A stretch of 64,000 bases of DNA from Fennellomyces sp. T-0311 (taxonomy: Eukaryota > Mucoromycota > Mucoromycetes > Mucorales > Lichtheimiaceae). The notes under the pieces are model-generated. The model was not told where the DNA came from. It did not search any database and saw only the letters and a list, made by a program, of their open reading frames with translations. The stretch is from NCBI GenBank assembly GCA_025266875.1, contig JALLLT010000007.1, positions 310,001 through 374,000 of the forward strand, in the 5' to 3' direction. This document shows, one piece after another, positions 36,785-60,305 of the stretch. Within the stretch, counting starts at the first letter, position 1. Every line of letters begins with the position of its first letter. Both the position numbers and the translations under genes were made by a program.

Positions 36785-36920
36785 AGAACCAAGCCCTTTC
36801 GTTTCCTTCTTTTTCCTTCTCTTTCGTCCTTTTCACCTGCATCTGTAAAGAGTCAACTGTACGTTGTCCGTAAAGCTTTGTGATTTATCCCCTTGAACCA
36901 CAGAATAGTATGCCGTAAGC

Positions 36921-38543
36921 ATGTATATCGAGTACGTCACGCCGCAACGAATAGCCGATCCAAACATTACCGAGTACAACTCGAAGGGAGGCGAATTCAG
37001 ACCTACATGGCTCATCCGCGCTTCCGACTGGGAAAAGGTTCTTGGCACCGATGCTGTTGATGGCTACCACACCCTATCGTATTGCTGGGAGCAGTCAGGC
37101 GATATCAAGAAACTTGAAAACGGCGAACATGTTTGCGTTGACAAAGGGCGCCATCGTATTAAAGCTGCTGTAGAGAAACGTAGAGCGTCCACTTTTTTTC
37201 GAAAACATAGAACAACGAAAGTGACATACGACAAATTGCTCCAGCGGATATGCAAGGACTTTGACATCGAGTACTTGTGGTACGACAAGATCTGCATCGA
37301 CCAGACCAACAAGGCAGAAAAGCATCGCGAAATCAAACAAATGCACCTCATTTACAGCAACGCACGTTACACAGTCGCCTTGGTCCCCGAAATCTACATT
37401 GAGGATCCCGAGGTTTTCGACCGTATGATGTGGGGATACAGATATACTGAAGCTAAATCCAATGCACTTAGTCAAATGCGGAAATCACTGTGGTTCCGAC
37501 GGAGCTGGACACTGGAAGAAGTCATGATGTCTACGCGGATTTTGGTCGTTGGACGAAACACCCATTTTTGGTCTCTTGCAGATATCAAACAAGGTGACAA
37601 ACGAAAGGAAGACGACGGACTGGCCATCATGATGCTCGGATTCAAGGAACGTACAGTGAAAAGCGCAAACCAAGTCCTCTGTTACACGCACAGGCGTACA
37701 AGCACGAAGGAACACGACAAGATATTTGCGCTGGCCAACATTTTTGCAGACTTGATTTCCATCGACGTCGATTACGACAGCGACGTGTCCGCTGCAGTAA
37801 ACGCATTTTACCGACGCTTGGCCCAAAGGGATCTATCGCTCATGTGTTTCGGGTCGGTGCTGCGTTCTTGGAATGGAAAGCTTATCTTTACGACAACCAT
37901 GGGATCCTATGGCCTTCCTTCTTGGACAGGCGTTGCTGGGTTGCACTCAACTAGGCCAATTGCTGATACTACACTGGACCAGAATTACGATTATACGATA
38001 GACGAGAATATGGTGTTACATATGCACTGCCGATACCACACCATACACCCTCGCAAATACGACAATTTCAATGTCTTCAAAGAAGAGGAACGAATGAAGA
38101 AAGCAAGGAGTAATTATTTCAAAAAGATCAACTCAATGGATAACTTTGACGACGAAAGCGAGGCGTTGGATTGGAGTCAATGGACCATGCTTAAAACATC
38201 AATCTGCTATTCCACGCATTATTACAAACCAGACAGCCAAGCTCAATTCCTCTCACCGGTGTTGCCACTCTCCCTCACCGAAGAATGCGACGAGTGTGTC
38301 ATTTTGGGCGTCGTATTTGACAGTGTGATTCCAGCAGTAGTCGATGATGCCTTTGCTGATTATGATCACACTTATTTCTCGCCAGTCGCAAGAAGGCTGA
38401 CCGATGGCTCTTACAAAATAATCGGTATCATATTTCTGAAACGCTTCCAATATAACGAGCCGCGCATCAGCCCACGAGAAGCTATGGATAAAATGTTCAA
38501 TAACCCTGGCTGTGATACTACTGAACACTTTTATATCAAATAA
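36921..38543 (+). CDS. HET (heterokaryon incompatibility) domain protein 1
   Basis: One uninterrupted frame of 540 residues. HET-domain proteins (PF06985) in other fungi trigger cell death after recognition of non-self, and the fold is related to TIR domains. Motifs in order: YHTLSYCWEQSGD (about residue 50), LWYDKICIDQTNKAEKHREI with QMHLIYSNA (about 120-145), and WFRRSWTLEEVMMS (about 190). The C-terminal half is unassigned, with LPSWTGVAG and a DECVILGVVFDS strand. It is 8 residues longer than the paralogue at 58215..59813. No extra NACHT, WD40 or ankyrin domain is fused. Role as incompatibility or immune-type effector is inference from the family. Confidence 0.85.
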   Translation: MYIEYVTPQRIADPNITEYNSKGGEFRPTWLIRASDWEKVLGTDAVDGYHTLSYCWEQSGDIKKLENGEHVCVDKGRHRIKAAVEKRRASTFFRKHRTTKVTYDKLLQRICKDFDIEYLWYDKICIDQTNKAEKHREIKQMHLIYSNARYTVALVPEIYIEDPEVFDRMMWGYRYTEAKSNALSQMRKSLWFRRSWTLEEVMMSTRILVVGRNTHFWSLADIKQGDKRKEDDGLAIMMLGFKERTVKSANQVLCYTHRRTSTKEHDKIFALANIFADLISIDVDYDSDVSAAVNAFYRRLAQRDLSLMCFGSVLRSWNGKLIFTTTMGSYGLPSWTGVAGLHSTRPIADTTLDQNYDYTIDENMVLHMHCRYHTIHPRKYDNFNVFKEEERMKKARSNYFKKINSMDNFDDESEALDWSQWTMLKTSICYSTHYYKPDSQAQFLSPVLPLSLTEECDECVILGVVFDSVIPAVVDDAFADYDHTYFSPVARRLTDGSYKIIGIIFLKRFQYNEPRISPREAMDKMFNNPGCDTTEHFYIK

Positions 38544-38570: not shown

Positions 38571-39398
38571 TCATAGCAAATCACCAAGTGACCAACTTTC
38601 GGCTACGGGTTTCAGAATTTTTTCGGGTGAGCTACTCCAGTTCCACATACCACTACGTATCTGGCGATGAAATGGTAGACTGGCTCGTTTGTATGGCTTG
38701 GATCGTAAGACTTCATAAGCAATCTGACTTCTGATTTGTTCGCACATATCAATCTCTTAATTACACATCCTTTAAGGCAAAGTCTTTTATACAGCAGTTT
38801 CCCGTTTTTAGGCGCTCTATACGGCGTTTGAAAAGGAAGTCTTTACGAATCGGTTGGTCCGTCTGGATCAAACTTGACATTTCTTTTTTTTATAATATGG
38901 CTTGAAGCACATCGCTATTCGCATTCCCGCTCTGCCCGATCTCGTTTAAAGTAGAGAAAACCCCGTGCATCAGAGGGTCAAAAGTAAGAGTGAAAGTTTG
39001 GTGAATCTTGTGAACAAGGAGAAAGAACGAGAGGGAGGGGGCCCGTTCTCGAAAGTACTGGCTGGGTTGAGTCGGTGAATCTGTTATGTGGGGTACGGGA
39101 TGCTGTTGCGTATACATGACATTATGGGGAAGCGCTGATGCGAAAAGAGCAGAGGTGGTGGGTGATATATGGAAAGGCGGTCGTCAATTCTGGAAGCAAG
39201 CAAAGGGTAGCTGCATGAAGACAATGGTACGCACTGTGTAACGATCCTATCGGTTGGCAGCTGAAGTAAACACTGCAGGATTGGATTTGAGAATGGACGC
39301 CAGGAAGTTGTGTCAGAGTTGCAGCGAAGGAAACAAGGAGGTGGGAAAAACGCAGCTTTACCATCCTCCTCTCTCTTTTTCCCGCTCCATTCACCATA
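38571..39398. other. Intergenic region
   Basis: No gene supported. A T/C-rich tract at 39355..39385 lies directly before the ATG of the Fanzor relic and may be what is left of its promoter. Confidence 0.4.
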
Positions 39399-39909
39399 AT
39401 GGATGCTAACTACGGTGCAACTCGCTTCACTTCTTCCAGTAACCTTCAAATTGGCATCACGCAACTTTCTGAAGAACGACTTGAAGACGCAACCAGGTAC
39501 CTGACAGAGCGTATTATGGGGAAAGGGAACCTCACCAAAGTCATGAAGGCTTTGCAGAGAAGCGATCTCGAAGCAACCCAAACATCGGCAACTCTTGCAC
39601 AAATCCTGAACAACAAAGAGGAACACGCATGTCCGTTATGCTTGAGCCCAATGAAGCCCAATGAAGCTTTATAAGTATCGTCGAGAAGGCGAACTGAAGG
39701 CAGTAAATGGCCCACTGAGGTGTACGAACGTCCGTTGCCCTTGTCATCGAAACAGTACCTATGGAAGAGATGACGCCGCGGCCTTTAACATCGCAATTAG
39801 AGGGCTGTCCATCACTATTTCAAAGGACAACACACCGCTGCCTGCGTTCAGGAGAAATCCACATGACCCATATCAAATCAATCACAACATGGAAATCTTT
39901 TCGGTGTAG
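39399..39909 (+). pseudogene. Fanzor C-terminal relic (zinc ribbon plus RuvC-III)
   Basis: The first frame (39399..39674) starts MDANYGATRFTSSS and runs to EEHACPLCLSPMKPNEAL. A short duplication (cccaatgaag twice, about 39648..39667) breaks the frame. The next frame (39661..39909) reads KLYKYRREGELKAVNGPLRC, CTNVRCPCHR and GRDDAAAFNIAIRG. This aligns residue by residue with the end of the Fanzor gene at 49.5 kb (KLQKYRVDGKLKTANG, CTNPDCPLHH, NRDGAASFNIAV). RuvC-I and most of the protein are missing. The last catalytic Asp is kept. The N-terminal 60 residues do not match the other locus. Confidence 0.75.
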
Positions 39910-39936
39910 CTCTTGTGTTCTCGTTCGCTGCTCCAA

Positions 39937-39951
39937 CCAGCTTGAAGCTGG
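39937..39951. repeat. Perfect hairpin after the Fanzor relic
   Basis: CCAGCTTGAAGCTGG is a perfect 7-bp stem with one-base centre, flanked by CTCCAA and an A-rich run. It could be a folded 3' RNA element or chance. Confidence 0.35.
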
Positions 39952-41287
39952 AGAAAAAGAGAGTTTAGTTACATAGCTGAACGCCTGTATTTTTCTGATA
40001 TAGCTTTTTCGATACACACATGTTGTATGTAGCTTTTGCCTTAGCAATGGTTTTTTTTTTGGCTTGGTGCAGAGAAGCCGATGCTCCAGGAGGAATCCTC
40101 ACCCTTTCTAACCGGTCTGCTTTCGCCTCAGCTACTAGCCATTCCGTACACCAGGTGCGACGAAGGGCGTAGCAATGGTCGTAACGCTAATACCTAGCTT
40201 ATATGTTCTGACGTTTTCGCACACTATAAAGTTAAACATCTGTGTCTCATGAGCTAGAACAGAAGTGGGTATTTTAGTTCTATTCTTGTTATTTAATATT
40301 CCTGGTGGATATACAATAGACGAGTTACTTACATAATCGGATTAGAATTAGGATTATGGGGTTAAGGCATAGTCGAGTGAGTACCCTTTAAAGTTTCTTG
40401 TGTGTGCACAATGTTGCACACCTTTATTGATCCAGATAAGGTACATTCCATTTTAGCAAGAGATCTTGTTATCTGCGCGCACCATACCACTTTGATAACG
40501 ACAGTCGTGCTACCCGCGAGCCAAATGATCGTGCTGTCAGCCCCATTGTACCTTAGCGAGCAAAAACTAATATTCAGAAACCAAAAGTTGAGTCGAAATC
40601 GAATTGAGTTATCGCCACAACCATTTTTTGCACTCCAGCAACATGAGTGAAGGAGTATGTGCTTGTGTCACTTTCCCAAAAGGAGTCCTCGTTTTTCCGC
40701 AAGGAATTACCACGCTTCAGCGATTTGTAGCCCAGATGAATATATGGATAAACGTTAAAGCTCGCTATCATGGCTTACCTTTGAGCATGCAGTTGAACAT
40801 CATTCGCGAGAACGGGCCAGATCAAGAGCTTTATGAGCAGTCAGTAAGCCCATCGATGGAGTTTTTCGATTAGATAAGCGGTAATTGTTTCTCAGCTCAA
40901 ACATTCTAACCGTACAAGTGCCGTTTTCATTTCACACCATATGATTCTCATTACTTTAGTGAGAGATGGCTACTATATATTGTGTGCATATTTAGGTGGT
41001 ACAAATGGACGGCGGGGCCACACCAACAGCGGGAGGCTGCCGTAGTCAGAGAGTGTCACTACTAGTTCCTCCCTCTACGGAGATCCATGCGCCCCTGAGG
41101 TGTCAGAGGACTGTACCCTGAATCGATGCGCCGTATGCTGCCAGATCGGTTCGAATATAACCCTCTCTTTCTTTTGGCTGTAACTGCCCCAGCATGTCCA
41201 CAACGGAAACTATCGAAAAGGTCTATAGTTACACCACCAAAGCAAAACCATGTTTGCAGCACCGACGGTTGTTAGTTTTCTTTCCCA
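39952..41287. other. Intergenic region
   Basis: One open frame of 76 residues at 40643..40873 (starts MSEGVCACVTFPKG) has no recognisable domain and is a weak candidate. The rest shows nothing. Confidence 0.35.
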
Positions 41288-47208: not shown

Positions 47209-49536
47209 TTTTATTCAAGCCAGATCCATAGATCGATTAGCGCGCACAATGTCACAGAGATGTACTCGGCATGTCTGTTCTTCTCGTTCTTCGCTGCTCT
47301 CTTTGAGTTCGATACTTGTGTAGCCCGTTATAGAATCATTGCGTTTCCCGCGGACGTGTGTCTACCGCATAGACGCTTCGAATTCGCTCAGGGGTAACAT
47401 TAAAGAAACCGTTTGCTGGTCCGGAGGACCGCAAACTCGAACGAAGAGATGAGCAACACACTCATGGTAAATATTTTGGTTCGTCAGTACATACTAAATT
47501 AAATAGCAATGGTAAAAAAAGATGCCAAGAACGAGGTAGTGTATTCATATTCGACGCGTTCTAGGTCAGAACTTTATTACCATCTGTTGCTAGATACAAC
47601 ATTTCAATTTCTGGTCAAGATTGTTGGATGCGTATTCGTTCCTTTTAAGGTTTAGCGCACAAACTCCCAGTGCTTTTTGTACGGTTGCTACAGCGAACTT
47701 GGCAAGCATTAGATATTTTGTAGCCGTTTATTACTCTGTTTTTTGGTCATGTAATTGCAATTATAAATCGTATTATGTATCCATATGCAAGTTTTCAAAG
47801 CCTACAAAAATCTGTACGTACACATATTCTTGCGTTGTCAATTGACTTAATCACCAAAGAATTCGTGCTAGTATGATTGTCCTCGCTGGTGAATCGAAGT
47901 GGATCGATGTATCAGGCCCTAAATGTTTATGAATTTGTTGATCAATTGGACACACTGTCGTTTGCAACATAGTTGGAAGATTTTGTGCCGATTTCTTCAA
48001 GAGAGCCTCGTGGAATATAACTCTATTGTTCTGCTACTGAGCATACCATGGGTCTATGTCCCTAATTGCTTGGAAGATCGCAAAGTGTAAATATTGTTGT
48101 AGGCGTTAGCTTGGTCGCGCAAAAGTATGTCAGTGATCTTCTGGTTCAATAACGTATCAAATGATGATACCAAGTATCGAAGAAAGAGGATCATGCCGCG
48201 TTGCACAATATGTCACATCCATCATTCCATGGTCTGATATCGGCTTACTACTTCTCTTCGTAGAAACACTGACGTTGACTTGCCATGAATGGATTTCAAA
48301 TTAGATTCGGCTGGACCAATAAACATGTCAAAGTTCAACTGTAGTATTGCAGAGCAAGTGACGAAGCGGTTACAGTTTTGGTTCCGACGGAAGATTCCTA
48401 TCTTACTCTATTGTAATCAATTGGCATTATGAGCGCACACGAGATTGTGGCATATTGGCAGTCCTGAACTGTTAGTAGTGGGTCAGTTGCAGCTTTGGCA
48501 TGACTATCTACAGATTCGTCCCTTTCACACATCTCAAATGCAATGATCAGTAAAGTAACCTTGTCCTTCTTGAGTGTGGCACCTGTGAACAATGATGCGA
48601 CAAATGACGAGCAGGAGTAATCGAGAGTATGATGCATATTGAGCATATCGGCGGTTGTTTTGTCCAATTTTTTATGTGATACAATTTCAGTATAAAGTTT
48701 TGGCAATGTCGAGGCTTTTGTATGAGCCGAAAGAATATCGTCACCGGTGGTCGCTTCGTCATCATTATCAATATGAGCCACTTGTACGTCGTCTTGCGCA
48801 CGTGTTATAGTAGCTTTACTTGTAATTATTCTCGTGCTTTTATTGTAATTTAAGCGATCCTTTAGAACATTGGCGTCATCGACTCTGGAAATGCATATAA
48901 TTGCGTTGCTTTTAAATCGTCTTTATAACTTCCCAGTTATATTCGTATCGATGAACACTTGATCGTCTTTGTTGCATAATATGCTGATTCTTCGTCCAAG
49001 TCGAGGGTATGCTTGTACTTCTCCTTGAGTAGAAGGGGTTTTCTTCATTTAATCTAATGCTACCTGTCCGAACACTCTTTACACATCTTGCGATGGTTCA
49101 TTTTGCGATCCATAGCTGTCTTTTTGCGAAAACACAGACCGTTGACGTTGTGATGCTTAAGTTATATCGTCTGCCTCCAGTAGCTATTCGTTATAGCTTT
49201 GTGTAGCTGGTTCGTGGGAATGTTCGTGGTAAAAAAAAAAGTGTTAAGGACTAATTTTCAGGTTCACACAGAGAAAAATATATGGTGTAATGATACCAGC
49301 ACAATATGTATTCAAAAAGAGACTCCATGGTTGAGGATTGATCCGCTTTATTTTGCTGACTATGAGCTGATTCGCAAAATACCTGTCATGTTGGCCAATC
49401 TAACTATTTCAAAGCAATGCCCTCAATCAATTTTGTGATCGTGCAACGGAATGTTGAAATATAAAGTAACTAAACTTCAAAAATCAGACGTTCTATACTA
49501 CTTTAAATCCACCGTCACGGGGGAGACAAAAAGCAC
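47209..49536. other. Long region without a supported gene
   Basis: A minus-strand frame at 48781..48398 starts MAHIDNDDEATTGDD and looks protein-like at first, but has no domain. Its neighbourhood contains short runs of frames suggesting an old broken gene. The last 90 bases (49450..49536) are the 3' flank of the Fanzor gene and hold a small CCGTCACGG stem (49512..49520). Confidence 0.4.
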
Positions 49537-52500
49537 CTAGCGCTGGTGTTCCGTCAATCGCTCCATGGAGGCAGCGAGTTGGAAGGTTTGGTCGTGGGAG
49601 CGGGAGAAGGGTGGGATGGGTAAATTGTTGTGAGATACAGCTTTCGAAAGGCCACTGACAGCGATGTTGAATGATGCTGCTCCATCACGGTTGAAAGTAT
49701 TCGCATGGTGGAGAGGACAGTCCGGATTCGTGCACCTGATGGCGCCGTTAGCTGTCTTGAGCTTTCCATCTACTCGGTACTTCTGCAGTTTTGTCGGTGC
49801 ATGGCATTCAGGGCATGACTTAGATGAGCGATATTCGTTGGTGACGATGACGGTATCTTGCTTGCATGACTCGAGAGCCTGTCTCAGTTTTGCGTTCGCG
49901 CCTCTAGCATGCTTCTTGATGCGACTGTTGACTGCACGATATGCGCCATAGAAAGCCAGTGTTGCTATCGATTGCTGAACGCGCCAAGATGTTGCAAGCT
50001 TTCGATGCAGGATAAAGTGACGGATCTCTCTCGTCCTTGACTCTTTATTCCTCCTGTTGCCGTCGTCCTTTTCCTTGTCGCGTTCGCGTCGATTTGTATG
50101 CTTTGTTTCGAAGGTCGCAGCCTTTTTTATTGATGATGTATATTTTTTCGCTTTGGGTGGACGTGTTGTCTGTTGCGGCGGTTGCTGCTCAGGTGATGGT
50201 GGTGAGGTGTACCTTCGCACAACGCTCATCACGGCGTCAAAGGTGGTGGTAACCGCGGTTGCCGCGACAACTATCCCTGGATCGATCCCAGTGACAGCCA
50301 GCGGTTTCTGGCTGTTGAAGCTGTCAATGATCGTCTTCTGGATACGTTTCTATAAACACAGTGATAAGCATACATATAACGCGCCTTTGATCCAAGCGCT
50401 TTACCTGTTCTATTGTTTCTTGGGGCCGAACTGTTTTGTTCGATTTTAACGCTTGCATCCGAAACAGCTCGGCACGCAAATCCGCCAACTTCCTTTGCTT
50501 CAATGAGATGTCCTTTTCAAATTCCCGGACAGTTCTTCGCACCGCCCATAGCTTCGTGTAAACACCACGATCCCAATCCTTCTTCTCCTTGTTCTTTTTC
50601 CCATTCCGGAATGTACGACCCAGGTCTGCACGCTCGATCTCGTACTTATTGCACTTCTTGCGTACCAATGTGAGCTCGGCCTGTAGCTCCTTGACCTGTT
50701 TCTCCTTCTCTTCCAGAAGCTGTTGGTTGAGATTTTGGTCGATGTTAGCCCTTTTCGACCCAGATTCCGCTGCTGAAGGGTGCGGCCTTTTCTGCCCGGC
50801 TGCCTTGATCGCCTTCTTCTTTTTTCGCTTTCGAGCCTTCCTGGCCTTCCCTTTGCCAGCCATTCCCTTACCAGCCTTGTTCTTTGCTGTAGAGGGCGTC
50901 ACCACTGCCCTACCCTTCCCTTTGCGAACAGGAAGCACTTCGTCCGCACTGGAATCAGAGGAGCTAGATTCTTCATTTTGATCGGCGGACTGGACGCTGC
51001 TTGCTTCTTCCTTTGCTTGGCTGGTATTGTTCGGGTCAGCGGTCTTGCGACCACGACCAAGCACCCGGACCTGATACTTGTTAACATAGGTCAAACGGTG
51101 CTTGAAGACAAGGTTCTTGGTTTTGAGAGCTTGTGTTATCTTCGGTAAGCGGAAAAAAGCACCGAAAACGTCATCGCGCCTCTCTGGCAGGCCCGCCTCT
51201 CGTTTGCTGGTGACTTTCCCCTTGGCGCTGGTAGATGGGATCGTGTAAGTACCGGAGAATAATGTGTAAAGCACATCTGCTCCAATATGGATGGAGTGGT
51301 CTTTGTAGTCGACGTCTGGGACGATCGCCCAGATATTCTGTTGTGGGATCACCAATTTAACGACAGCGTTTGTGATATAAGCCAGAGGGACGCATTCATG
51401 CACTGACAGAACACCCGCTTCGTCGTCATCGTCGTCTTCCGCGCTATTGTCTTGATCTGGTTCTGGGTGGTAGTATGGTCGAACTGCGTTGGCGATTTCG
51501 GCAGCAGCCTGGCACTGCTTATCTGTTAGGTCGCTCCCCTTGTAGGCTGCATCGCGAATTGCTCTGGCAGACACCTGCTTGGAGGTGGTGGACAGGACTC
51601 GTTTGATAATGGCTACCAGTGCTCGAACTTGACGAACGGTAACTTCTTTTTCTTGGGCATCTACGGCAGACTCTTCCACTTCTTCCTCGTCGGCGTCGTT
51701 GGTCTTTGTACTAATCGGATTGTCCTTGTCAAGCTTCTTGGGAGGAGTGCGATCCTGTTTGTGCTTTTCTTCTTTCTCGGCTCCCTCTTTGCTACTAAGA
51801 GCTTTTGATGAATGGGACAGCTTGTCAAGCTTTTAGAGTAATTCTGTTAGTGCGAAAAGTAAGCACACAAAGATTCTGTCGATTTACCTTCGCGACCCAG
51901 TTGTTTAGCTTTTCGAATAACATTTCGATCACAGTATCATCTCTTCCGCGAATAATCGAATTCTCAAGCTCTTTCCGGTGGTAATCCGCCTTACTCTTAG
52001 CATGTGCTATGCTAATACGCCGATCCACGAGATTGCCGGTTTCTGTCTTCTCCTTTTTTCTCTTCTCAGCTGCAATCCGTGCGAGATAACGACGGACGCG
52101 ATCTGGAGCGAGCCTCAGCCGAATGAGAGCAGTTGTTAGGACTCGGAGATCTCTGTCGTGGCGCTTCCGCGACCAGAGGTTGTGTGCAGCTGTCTTGAAC
52201 TCCCGAAGAGCATTGTTCATGGCACCTTTGAAGGCAAAGTCACCCTGCTTGGTGACAACACCAGTATCCTCGATCGCCTTGCGCGATTCATGAAAAACAA
52301 ATGATTCCATCTTTTTGTTCACGCTTGAACCGACGCACCCTAAGCATAAAACATAACACGTTGATTGATGGAAACGGAAAGTGTACACTGCGATGACGTA
52401 CCTGACAGTATGTTCGAGAGATGTTCAAACTGATACACGCGGGCATCTTCCAACTTGTCCAGATTTGGCGGTATAGGTGACACATGGACAGCCGTTTTCG

Positions 52501-53789
52501 CCTCTGGTCCGAAATCAAAACCAGGTACCAGAGCTTGGATATCGAAAATTGTGTCGTCGACAACAGTACGGCACAGTCGGGCCATTCTTCCGCTGGCGAT
52601 CATATCAGTCAAAGCTGATACCCCGTCGAAAGTTGTGCCATACACTGACCGACGCGCAATTTCTCGTTCTCCAATCGGTTCAAGAACCCGTGGTAGGCGA
52701 TTTCCTCTCGTAAAATAGACCGCAATGAAAACGTCATAGTTGCTGTGAAAGTTGCTGTTTCGCGTATTGAAGTGTCTTTGTTCTTGACAGCTTGGCTATC
52801 TTCGTCGTCGGTTTCTTGGTCATCGTTGCTATTGGCTTCTTGATCGCTGTCCTGAACACCCATGACTTCGTCCCACGTACATGAGTCCAAGAAACCCTGT
52901 ACTTCCTCATGCAGCCGATACCCTTCACTTTTGAAGTATTGAAATCGGTCGTAATCTTTATAACCTTTTATCCGGTCAGCGAACCAGTTAGGAGCCACGT
53001 CCATGAGATGCCGTTTTAGGATGGATGCTTGGATCTCGTCATAGATGCGAGGAACGTTTTTTCTTTTGTCGTGCTTGTTGTGCAGCTTTTCTAGCATCTT
53101 GACAGCTTTTTGCTTGCTTTCCGCTCCTTTAAATGCCTCTTCAATCTCTTGACGATGGAACCGCCTGACCCCGGCCTCAAACTCGCTGATGATCTGGTCT
53201 CGGGTAATGCCTGTCCGTGGCATTGTCGTTTCTTCGTTGTCCACGTCATTCTCGTTATGGTCTGTAAGTGTGGCTACAGTAGACAATGGTGGAGCTGGTG
53301 CGGGCGTTGGCTGACCCTTTACCAGCTTCGGAGGCTTCAAAAGAAGTCGATTTGAGTATATCATTACTTTAAATGGTTAGTCAAAAGCCAACCTTGTACT
53401 CGGGCAAGTCGCAAAGTTGAAACCATTCGGTCTTCTCGCCAAGGTATGAGTCCGTATGCTGCAGCACACTAATAGTTGCCTTACAGATCCTTTTGATGAG
53501 CAATGGCTATGAGCAACATCAACCCCTTTTGCTTTAGTTGGTGGTGCGGTTTCCAAGAGAATGGTATGATCAGAGTCGCCGGAAAGCAGCCGTGTCAATA
53601 CGGTGGATTGGAGAATATCCGTGCCGCTTCTTTTAGGGCCGTGGTTGTTTTGCGCAGGTCCTCGGCACCGGGAACGAAGTTATGCAGACCACTGAAGGCG
53701 TTCTCGAGCCGGTTGGCTGAGATGGGTGGTGCTTCGATCTGTACCTCTTCCGAATGACCAAAGATCTTCTGTACAAGCGTAGGATTCAT
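49537..53789 (-). CDS. Fanzor (eukaryotic TnpB-like RNA-guided nuclease)
   Basis: Fanzors are eukaryotic relatives of TnpB; characterised ones cut DNA guided by an omega RNA from their own 3' end. This multi-exon minus-strand gene starts about 53789 (MNPTLVQKIFGHSEEV). Clear exons are up to 52402, 52339..51888, 51829..50405 and 50349..49537, with introns of 62, 58 and 55 nt. The last exon has RuvC-I as VTGIDPGIVVAAT (Asp at 50281..50283). The rearranged RuvC-II Glu follows as VTNEYRSSK (49834..49836), directly before a zinc ribbon (CPEC, then CTNPDCPLHH). RuvC-III is NRDGAASFNIAV (Asp at 49684..49686). All three acids and four ribbon cysteines are present. A large acidic and Lys-rich insert with a coiled coil lies at 50.5-51.5 kb. 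Frame joins near 53600..53360 and 52740 are unresolved, so the 5' part may be damaged. Confidence 0.85.
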
Positions 53790-54339
53790 AGTTGGAAAGA
53801 ATGTGGTACAGCATGAAGCGCGAAACGCGAAAAAAAGAGAGTCGACGCAAGCACGCAATTGGGCGTGTATTTTATTTGGTACTTCCTTATTAAGTTAGGC
53901 TAACGTTGACGTCCAAGCATTGTTACTTTCATTCGTAGTATCTATCATAATGGGCAACCCTATTGGCCATCGCTATTGTTTCAATATGCGAACGAGGCAC
54001 ACGCTTCATGTATGGTATGCACGGATCAACTGTTTCTGTGCATGAATGCTATCGGCAACCAATGATATGCATAAACGGCGCAACCCACCAGCTTCCGTTT
54101 TAAGTAGAATATCTCGCAGTAAAAAGCGTGACAGACACCCAGCCAGCCGTATCGACCAATCCCTAAAGGCTGTTTCAAACGCCGTTAGAACGCCTAAAAA
54201 GTGTAATGCTCTGTTATACTTCGGATTACGTATTTGTAATCAGAGTAGAGCGGATCAAAGGATGCTGCTGCGTACTTTATCAGTGGTTACAACATACATA
54301 CTTCTATGATCTAAATATGCTACAGAAATGGATCGGTCA
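53790..54339. other. Intergenic region upstream of the Fanzor gene
   Basis: Contains the presumed Fanzor promoter. The plus-strand frame at 54046..54309 has no recognisable feature. No terminal inverted repeat pairing with the 49.4 kb side is visible. Confidence 0.4.
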
Positions 54340-58189: not shown

Positions 58190-60305
58190 AGGAGATTATA
58201 ACAGCACATGTGTTTTATTTGATATAAAAGTCCTCAGAAGTCTGGCAGCCAAGATTGTTGAACATTTTATCCAAAGCTTCTTGGGGGCTGATGCGCGGCT
58301 CATCACGCTGGAAGTGTTTCAGAAGTATGATACCGATTATTTTGCAAGAGCCATCAGTCAACCTTCTTGCAACTGGGGAGAAATAAGTGCGAGTATAACC
58401 AACAATGACATCGTCGACTGCTGATGAAAGCACACTGTCAAATACGACGCCCAAAATGACACACTCGTCGCATTCTTCGGTGAGGGAGAGTGGCAACACC
58501 GGTGAGAGGAATTGAGCGTGGTTGTTTGGTTTGTAATAATGCGTGGAATAGCAGTTTGATGTTTGACGCATGGTCCATTGACTCCAATCCAACGCCTCGC
58601 CTTCGTCGCCAAAGTCATCCATTGAGTTGATCTTTTTGAAATAATTATAGTATGATTTGTCTATTCGTTCGTCGTCGCCGGCGAAATCGAAATCGTTGTA
58701 TTTGATGGGGTGCATGGTGTGGTATCGGCAGTGCATATGTAGCACCATATTCTCGTCTATTGTATAATCGCAATTCCAGTCCAGTGTAGTTTCAGCAATT
58801 GACCTAGTTGAGTGTAATCCAGCAACGCCTGTCCAAGAAGGAAGGTCACAGGATCCCATGGTCGTCGCGCATTGAGAACTTCCATCCAAAGGATCCAGCA
58901 CTGATCCAAAGCACATGAGCGATAAATCCCTTTGGGCCATGCGTCGGTAGAATAAGTTCATTGCAGCGGACACGTCGCTGTCGTAATCAACGTCGATGGA
59001 AATAATGTCTGCAAAAATGTTGGCCAGCGCAAATATCTTGTCGTGTTCTTTCGTGCTTGTACGGAAGTGCGCCCATACGAGTACTTGGTTTGCACTTTTC
59101 ACTGTACGTTCCTTGAATCCGAGCATCGTGTTGGCCAGAAGGTCGTTTTCCTTGATTGTGTCACCGTGTTTGGTATTAGCAAGAGACCAAAAATGGGTGT
59201 TTCGTCCAACAACCAAAATCTGCGTTGACATCATGACTTCCTCCAGTGTCCAGCTCCGTTGGAACCACAGTGACTCCAGCATTTGGTCAATTGCTCTGGC
59301 TTTAGCTTCGGCACACTGTGCAAACCAGTTCATACGGTCAAAATCCTCAGGATCCTCAATGTAGATTTCGGGGATCAAGGCGACTGTGTAACGCGCGTTG
59401 CTGTAAATGAGATGCATTTGTTTGATTTCGCGATGCTTTTCTGCCTTGTTGGTTTGATCGATGCAAATCTTGTCGTACCACAAGTACTCAATATCAAAGT
59501 CCTTGCATATCTGCTGGAGGAGCTCGTCGTATGTCGCGTTCCAGCTGTTCACTACTCCATTTTTTTCTCTGGTAATTTTATGAAGACCTTGGTCGATCAA
59601 ATCGTATTCTCCATTTTCAAGTTTCTTGATCTCGCCTGACTGCTCCCAGCAGTACAATAGGGTATGGTAGCCGTCAACAGCATCGGTGCCAGGAACCTTT
59701 TCCCAATTGGAAGTGCGGACGAGCCATGTAGGTCTGAATTCGCCTCCCTTCGAGTTGTACTCAGTGTAGTTCCGATCGGCTACTCGTTGCGGTGTGATGT
59801 ACTCGATATACATGCTTGCGGCAGATTATTCTGTGTTCAAGGGGATAAAACACAAAGCTTTACGGGACAACTACAGCTGACTCTTGAAAGCACCGGTGTA
59901 AAGGACGAAAGAAAGAAAAAAATGGACTTGGGTCTCTTGTTTTATGTCGCTGTCGTGTAACTCTTGCTTTACGCCACTGTCGTGCAACATCGCAGCTAAA
60001 CCCAAACTTTATCAGTGTTACAGAGCAGATGACGCCGTATCTCGATCAATGCATTTTGTGTTGGAGTAGAACAGCAGAAGCCAGATCAGTGGGTAGTGTG
60101 TTCGAAGCTTGCGTACGAAGCAAGCTTGATTTCGTGGTCGAACGCCAATTGTGAGGCGTGTTAACGGTGGCAAAGAGCGGACATCACATTCCCACCCACA
60201 TTCGCTGATGCTTTTGGACAACAGTACTTTCTGCTTCCTCCAACCAACAGAAAATCAAGGAGCTCATTGTATTTGCAATCGTGTAAGACAAGAATTTATT
60301 CGCGG
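58190..60305. repeat. Inverted duplication, right copy
   Basis: Reverse-complement match to 36371..38570, covering the HET gene and about 490 bases of its 5' flank. A block of about 24 bases present in the left flank after CTCTTTGCC is absent here. Confidence 0.85.
58215..59813 (-). CDS. HET (heterokaryon incompatibility) domain protein 2
   Basis: An intact 532-residue frame, the closest relative of HET protein 1. Motifs: YHTLLYCWEQSGE, LWYDKICIDQTNKAEKHREI, QMHLIYSNA and WFQRSWTLEEVMMSTQ. The largest difference lies after residue 70, where KNGVVNSWNATYDELL replaces the KRRASTFFRKHRTTKVTYDK segment of copy 1. The C-terminal half stays alignable to the last residues (EDFYIK against EHFYIK). 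Both copies lacking stops suggests that both are, or recently were, under selection. Confidence 0.84.
   Translation of the reverse strand: MYIEYITPQRVADRNYTEYNSKGGEFRPTWLVRTSNWEKVPGTDAVDGYHTLLYCWEQSGEIKKLENGEYDLIDQGLHKITREKNGVVNSWNATYDELLQQICKDFDIEYLWYDKICIDQTNKAEKHREIKQMHLIYSNARYTVALIPEIYIEDPEDFDRMNWFAQCAEAKARAIDQMLESLWFQRSWTLEEVMMSTQILVVGRNTHFWSLANTKHGDTIKENDLLANTMLGFKERTVKSANQVLVWAHFRTSTKEHDKIFALANIFADIISIDVDYDSDVSAAMNLFYRRMAQRDLSLMCFGSVLDPLDGSSQCATTMGSCDLPSWTGVAGLHSTRSIAETTLDWNCDYTIDENMVLHMHCRYHTMHPIKYNDFDFAGDDERIDKSYYNYFKKINSMDDFGDEGEALDWSQWTMRQTSNCYSTHYYKPNNHAQFLSPVLPLSLTEECDECVILGVVFDSVLSSAVDDVIVGYTRTYFSPVARRLTDGSCKIIGIILLKHFQRDEPRISPQEALDKMFNNLGCQTSEDFYIK

Follow-up and report, generated by a model that had tools for sequence, protein, structure and literature searches.

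A frameshifted copy of a repeated Fanzor1 element with Helentron-shared termini in the fungus Fennellomyces sp. T-0311

Little is known about the role of Fanzor proteins for eukaryotic transposons (Yoon 2023, PMC10711439). Fanzor genes have already been described in Helitrons of Chlamydomonas, and Fanzor1 genes in other element types of Rhizopus, Phycomyces, and Mucor (Bao and Jurka 2013, PMC3627910). The Fanzors that have been tested are RNA-guided, with CATA, TTAAN, CCG, and TAG as target-adjacent motifs (TAMs) and the 3′ flank as the guide (Saito 2023, PMC10432273). Here, we analysed a Fanzor gene of the fungus Fennellomyces sp. T-0311 (Mucorales, Lichtheimiaceae), located in a stretch of 64,000 nucleotides (nt) of contig JALLLT010000007.1 (positions 310,001 to 374,000), hereafter called the window. 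We consider it highly likely that the gene is part of a broken copy of a repeated 4.7-kb Fanzor1 element, which has its termini in common with Helentrons and was likely copied in by a Helentron Rep/helicase acting in trans.

The Fanzor gene and its state in the window copy

Judged by its motifs, the last exon (Table 1) is a genuine Fanzor1-type RuvC/zinc-ribbon exon. Its 270-aa frame carries the acids D23 in TGIDPG, E172 in NEYRSSK, and D222 in NRDGAAS; E172 adjoins CPEC, and the second cysteine pair is CTNPDC. RuvC-I, the RuvC-II glutamate, the four-cysteine zinc ribbon, and RuvC-III, all placed in this exon by the initial annotation, are thus present. The published pattern D-X(125,275)-[TS][TS]-XX-C4-X(5,50)-RD was found in all ten exons checked, namely that of the window copy and nine sisters, one of which (L013) contains a stop and nonetheless fits. 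The glutamate before the zinc ribbon was likewise found in 10/10 exons and the DPG signature in nine (L014 reads DLG), and it is the combination of DPG with an alternative glutamate at this place that has been described as a trait of Fanzor1 and TnpB (Yoon 2023, PMC10711439).

A profile of five exon sequences matched SpuFz1 (8gkh) in the PDB with an E-value of 3.8e-4, aligning the glutamate and the zinc ribbon, while a single-sequence search reached SpuFz1 only at an E-value of 0.78. With the profile, no Fanzor chain besides SpuFz1 was found in the PDB at an E-value of at most 1 (the presence of PpFz1 in that copy of the PDB was unchecked), and an NCBIfam search gave nothing of use. The Pfam family PF07282 scored 19.4 bits on the window exon, below the curated cut-off of 26.3; in the whole genome it matched 17 places, among which five sisters were at or above the cut-off and the window copy was not included. 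The initial annotation had called the gene a Fanzor nuclease, to be checked with Fanzor1/TnpB profiles. The motif pattern and the SpuFz1 match bear out this identity, as Fanzor1-type.

The exons were predicted from common frames and GT..AG borders across seven full copies. Four predicted GT..AG introns of 58, 62, 58, and 55 nt lie in identical places in 7/7 of these, and the junction of exons 4 and 5 is also used by the annotated sister protein P0003, which upholds the multi-exon structure proposed earlier. In the C139 copy, the exons measure 450, 934, 452, 1425, and 813 nt and encode 1357 residues. Introns are no argument against mobility, since six sisters have the same four introns and the Fanzor Helitrons of Chlamydomonas are also multi-exon, with 5 or 10 exons (PMC3627910).

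The five-exon frame is open in three of the seven full copies (C98, C106, and C139) and broken in C79, C111, C90, and the window copy. When aligned with its six sisters, the window copy is interrupted in exons 1 and 2 by three single-base indels and by a deletion of 53 bp; its spliced frame meets the first stop at residue 65 and contains 18 stops in its own reading. The single-base indels could partly be sequencing errors, but the 53-bp deletion is unlikely to be one. As read from the DNA, the window copy itself would not yield the full protein. Pairwise ratios of nonsynonymous to synonymous substitution (dN/dS) were 0.26–0.38 in the 15 pairs without the window copy and 0.38–0.52 in the six pairs with it, a pattern that fits selection on the family during its spread and loss of function in the window copy. 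The nuclease described as intact in the initial annotation is therefore so with respect to its catalytic acids, but not with respect to its reading frame. Stops in the spliced 5′ exons, which the same annotation had set against its own reading, are present at the DNA level, and together with the frameshifts they speak against the activity then considered for this copy.

Ends of the element and its Rep-bearing partners

A search of the 45.6-Mb genome with the last exon gave 99 matches. Towards the right end, similarity was lost at 49476–49481 in 15 of the 21 distinct sister loci with DNA matches, the other six being more diverged or rearranged, with similarity that stops elsewhere. At the left end, the six sisters fetched lose similarity at 54174–54205. 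Between these ends, the seven full copies are 95.8–97.6% identical. The window copy, taken earlier for an exception among dead elements, is itself one of the repeated elements. On both sides (46.5–49.5k and 54.2–56.2k), its flanks are 69–77% identical to a paralogue (L067, C114:154-157k) that runs on continuously without the element.

In the window family, the left end reads TTTTT followed by AGGCGTTCTAACGG, and the right end closes with AGTATAGAACGTCTGATTTTT. With at most one mismatch, the right-end motif was found at 19 places in the genome, and a similar left terminus was seen in other Fanzor families. The sequence GAACGCCTGTATTTTT or a near variant stands at 16/17 fetched Fanzor right ends, and none was obtained from the remaining one, C103:373k. 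Helentrons have a 5′ inverted repeat with a hairpin at the left end; by eye, such a repeat, AGGCGTTC...GAACGCCT, is perfect in the C120 Helentron and in some Fanzor families, and in the window family it is imperfect, with a weak fold.

A left terminus similar to that of the Fanzor elements also precedes Rep genes. At C120:49k, one frame encodes Rep (PF14214, 1.2e-23) and another a PIF1 helicase with Exo_endo_phos, and at C172:46k a decayed element has PF14214 inside. The flank-blind search for left ends added a second family, named Helentrons by their termini, in which nine left ends have PF14214 downstream, at 1.7–1.9 kb in eight and at 7.5 kb in C90. The longest open Rep frames, of 1796 residues, were found in C39 and C179. 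To the same set belongs L108 (C121:35.5-36.0k), a non-autonomous Helentron that measures about 0.35 kb and has kept both ends but no gene, and the right ends fetched from this family (five and that of L108) show GGAGTATAGAACGCGT or a near variant, a hairpin by eye, and a T-run.

The 3′ motif AGTATAGAACG is common to Fanzor elements and Helentrons. A pattern search for it gave 32 matches against 9 for the reversed control, and the left-end searches had zero control matches. In the Helentrons, the motif is followed by a hairpin (by eye) and by a T-run about 30–50 nt further on, right ends that are not fixed by copy alignment, whereas in the Fanzor elements it passes immediately into ATTTTT or TATTTTT, 6–8 nt from the end. 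Helitron2 elements have been described with a 3′ repeat that precedes a hairpin and lies 20–30 bp from the end (PMC3627910). Since the Fanzor elements miss the published hairpin, we file them as a variant that would move in the manner of a Helentron and that likely descends from one. Movement in trans is inferred from both terminal motifs, which the Fanzor elements have in common with Rep-bearing elements.

Table 1. Positions, strands, and basis of the features of the Fanzor elements in the window.
Feature	Position	Strand	Basis
Whole Fanzor element	49479..54195	-	ends of sister DNA similarity
Target motif TTTTT, adjoining the element on its 5′ side, after AC in the window copy	54196..54200	-	left-end readings
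Left terminus, AGGCGTTCTAACGGCGTTTGAAACAGCCTTTAGG...	54150..54195	-	like Helentrons C120:49k and C172:46k and other Fanzor families
Exon 1 (predicted), broken in the window copy: 397 nt vs 450 in the C139 sister	53393..53789	-	copy alignment
Exon 2 (predicted), broken in the window copy by a single-base indel	52402..53334	-	copy alignment
Exon 3 (predicted), open	51888..52339	-	frame comparison
Exon 4 (predicted), open, lysine-rich	50405..51829	-	frame comparison
Exon 5, complete split RuvC and C4 zinc ribbon, stop TAG at 49539-49537	49537..50349	-	motif reading, SpuFz1 profile match
3′ tail of 58 nt, stop to element end; candidate 3′ part of omega RNA	49479..49536	-	low divergence
Right terminus: 3′ inverted-repeat motif AGTATAGAACGTCTG, then directly ATTTTT	49479..49500	-	similar motif in Helentrons
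Second Fanzor element, other family, internally deleted: first exon joined to zinc ribbon	38810..39994	+	TTTTT left, GAACGCCTGTATTTTT right

Internal changes were also seen in two other Fanzor copies: in L022 (C13:845-849k), 142 bp within the last exon are inverted, and in L042 (C90), 398 bp have been inserted into the 5′ noncoding part. In addition, P0009, a 28-member protein cluster on a 3.2-kb contig, has a DPG and zinc-ribbon layout that is similar by eye, and is a relative that possibly lies outside the Fennellomyces sp. T-0311 genome.

Insertion sites, proposed mechanism, and rival explanations

Two flank-blind searches yielded 25 and 29 left ends, and all 54 were read and classed by their downstream content. 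Fanzor sequence follows in 42 (two are 5′ fragments, and one was recognised by its first exon only), while the 12 Helentron ends lead to a Rep match in 11 cases and to no gene in one. A run of at least five Ts stands directly 5′ of 51/54 left ends. This run is preceded by CC at 25/42 Fanzor-bearing sites, compared with 19 of the 284 T5 runs that form the background in the window; three Fanzor sites whose T-run is damaged or out of place (C128, C137, and C121:337k) were scored as non-CC. In the two families of Helentron sites without Fanzor, CC was found at 2/2 and 2/10 sites. The difference between Fanzor and Helentron sites gave a Fisher value of 0.036 against the larger Helentron family and 0.19 against all twelve sites, and CC was accordingly rejected as a Fanzor-only trait for want of significance against all Helentrons. 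A single C adjoins the T-run at 35/42 Fanzor-bearing and 9/12 Helentron sites. The T5, and probably the C, are best ascribed to Rep.

Target duplications were counted in 14 window-family copies for which both junctions were fetched; a rearranged copy on C13, in which both junctions were seen and no repeat was present, was kept outside the count. All three copies with an altered left end repeat 6–9 nt beyond T5 on both sides, compared with none of the 11 with a canonical left end, which show at most 2 nt (p = 0.0027; two of the 11 start with G instead of A, and the C114 and C124 copies among them have a common left flank and are not independent). At the right end, TTTTT is identical in 13/14 copies. 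The copies on C124 (L046) and C114 (L050) are 99.4% identical over 794 bp, of which about 733 bp are left flank, including the 3′ part of another Fanzor gene, and their right flanks are unrelated. A unit that starts upstream and ends at the right end of the element would give this pattern, which we take as a further sign of rolling-circle behaviour.

The 3′ tail is the least variable part of the element among those compared in the seven copies, with a divergence of 0.0057 (50 columns) versus 0.0315 in introns, 0.0350 in 5′ noncoding, and 0.0340 in coding sequence. For 15 copies, the last 60 nt had a divergence of 0.0132, and of 37 other 60-nt blocks (0.0074–0.074) one lay below the tail. Such conservation would suit an omega RNA as well as a transposon end, and the tail may be both. 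No Rfam family matched at its gathering score in the window between 49300 and 54400. Variable four-fold sites numbered 4/33 at 58–260 nt from the end and 23/102 further in, counts too thin for use as a sign of synonymous constraint near the end.

In the course of events that we propose, a Helentron Rep would nick after TTTTT at the left end of a donor and at a (C)CTTTTT target, and the Fanzor element would be copied as a strand by rolling circle and then joined in. A failure at the left end would leave a truncated copy with a duplication, as suggested by the site data and by the precedent of the CRe families of Chlamydomonas. By analogy with other Fanzors, the protein of an open copy would bind an omega RNA from the conserved 3′ tail, with the right flank as the guide, and would cut the uninterrupted target site, and repair of this cut would copy the element in. 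The window copy would be a leftover without a full frame.

It is possible, but on present evidence rather doubtful, that the Rep insertion motif (C)CTTTTT doubles as the TAM of the Fanzor and that the right flank acts as the guide, so that the element homes into uninterrupted alleles. Each insertion would then write its own guide on the right, with the TAM on the left flank, and the Cs would separate the empty site, where CCTTTTT precedes the guide, from the right end of the element, where GATTTTT precedes the same guide, preventing self-cutting. Support for the TAM comes from the excess of CC at Fanzor-bearing sites over the T5 runs of the window. On the other hand, CC also occurs at Helentron sites, so Rep alone may explain it, and the window copy itself has AC before its T-run. 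If true, rolling-circle spread and RNA-guided homing would be one system with an IS605-like geometry in a eukaryote.

Several observations weigh against a Fanzor element moved by Helentron proteins. The hairpin after the 3′ motif was absent from the Fanzor right ends read. C120:49k is the sole partner in which helicase and endonuclease domains were looked for, and its two frames are not one open frame; of the 44 PF14214 matches in the genome, about 30 have ends that lie outside the survey. The exact empty site of the window copy could not be aligned, as the L067 paralogue is diverged at the junction. As for the omega RNA, the consensus fold energy was reached by 11 and 15 of 100 column shuffles, which gives no sign of covariation. 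AlphaFold2 models of the last exon (mean predicted local distance difference test score, pLDDT, of 36) and of the paralogue P0005 (mean 47) were too poor for use; in the latter, the last part of exon 4 is modelled as helical, with a pLDDT of 71–88 there.

Some of the same data could be read as a Fanzor gene inside a cut-and-paste (DDE) transposon whose terminal inverted repeats are short and whose duplication is the 5-bp TTTTT, as AGGCGTTC/GAACGYCT is found at both ends, TTTTT flanks both ends, and other Fanzor1 elements of the Mucorales are MuDR-like (PMC3627910). However, left ends of this kind also open elements with Rep matches, the length of the duplication varies and follows left-end truncation, TTTTT is nearly constant at the right ends, unlike a copied random target, and two copies have only their left flank in common. 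The partner elements and the duplication pattern thus disfavour a DDE transposon, for whose gene no search was made, and we regard it as very unlikely. Least credible is a domesticated host gene. The initial annotation had considered domestication and had spoken of a host-integrated gene, and the multi-exon structure and the full set of catalytic acids in the last exon would agree with this, but many copies with defined ends and variable flanks, of which that in the window is frameshifted, describe a repeated element and not a single, intact, non-mobile locus; domestication was therefore rejected. Exons 3–5 are open in the window copy, and a shortened active protein could in principle be made from an internal start. 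By analogy, we take the WED and REC parts to lie N-terminal to exon 3. The parts encoded there would be missing from such a protein, and the pairs with the window copy have the highest dN/dS, as expected after loss of function, which makes this explanation highly improbable.

The Fanzor gene might also be carried by the Helentron as a passenger, or regulate it, with no RNA-guided homing involved, and the family would then be kept for another role. The missing covariation and the lack of guide-target evidence leave room for this, and the role of the protein was left open for the CRe families (PMC3627910). Against it stand the nuclease motif, complete in each of the nine sister exons examined, dN/dS below 1, the conserved 3′ tail, and the RNA-guided nature of Fanzors tested elsewhere (PMC10432273), and we consider such a passenger fairly unlikely. 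The reading that we prefer remains that of a Fanzor1 element with Helentron-shared ends, probably copied in by Rep proteins in trans.

Outside the element, the window contains two genes with heterokaryon incompatibility (HET) domains, at 36909-38543 (+) and 58215-59825 (-), with E-values of 8.8e-18 and 5.7e-16. Ascomycetes are the fungi in which HET domains are best known, so two such genes in a member of the Mucorales may merit attention.

Comparison with known systems

As far as the literature was searched, the following are new: Fanzor elements linked to Helentrons in a fungus, partners in the same genome that are likely autonomous, an altered 3′ end, and a target motif of greater length. 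In the open-licence literature, which leaves subscription papers mostly uncovered, four papers mention Fanzor together with Helitron; Fanzor was not found together with Helentron or with Mucoromycota, nor Fennellomyces with transpos-. With these findings, a fungus joins the green alga in which Fanzor-Helitron elements had been described. In this genome, Fanzor elements occur beside their probable movers, which have open Rep frames and are likely autonomous, and dozens of insertions show a recurring target motif, so the question of homing is directly testable; the predicted TAM, guide, and target can be read from each insertion.

Parasitella parasitica is a member of the Mucorales. Its PpFz1 is, like the protein family described here, a Fanzor1 from this fungal order, but has ATN as its TAM (Xu 2024, PMC11423790). 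The Fanzor1 elements of Rhizopus, Phycomyces, and Mucor are likewise from Mucorales, but are MuDR-like or unclassified and not Helitrons (PMC3627910). SpuFz1 of Spizellomyces punctatus is similar in its zinc ribbon and the adjoining glutamate, which can be aligned; otherwise its sequence is distant, as seen from the E-values given above, its TAM is CATA (PMC10432273), and its gene, a single open reading frame, belongs to an element whose inverted repeats measure 33 bp and whose putative duplications are of TA (PMC3627910).

With Helentrons and Helitron2 (Thomas 2014, PMC4067079; PMC3627910), the elements share near-end inverted repeats, a T-rich target, and partners with Rep-helicase(-endonuclease), whereas they encode no Rep themselves and are without the 3′ hairpin. 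The closest likeness is to CRe-1, CRe-2, and CRe-3 of Chlamydomonas reinhardtii (PMC3627910), in which a multi-exon Fanzor1 is also carried by non-autonomous Helitron2 elements that have their 5′ and 3′ ends in common with Helitrons of the same genome. The CRe elements are inserted after a T-rich motif as well, a tetranucleotide in their case, and their full-length copies are without duplication while 5′-truncated ones have variable duplications. In contrast to CRe, with which our elements were compared in gene structure, ends, and insertion pattern, the host here is a Mucorales fungus, one of the partners read has an endonuclease domain, the 3′ motif lies 6–8 nt from the end and is not followed by a hairpin, and the target motif is longer, with C, and often CC, before the T-run.

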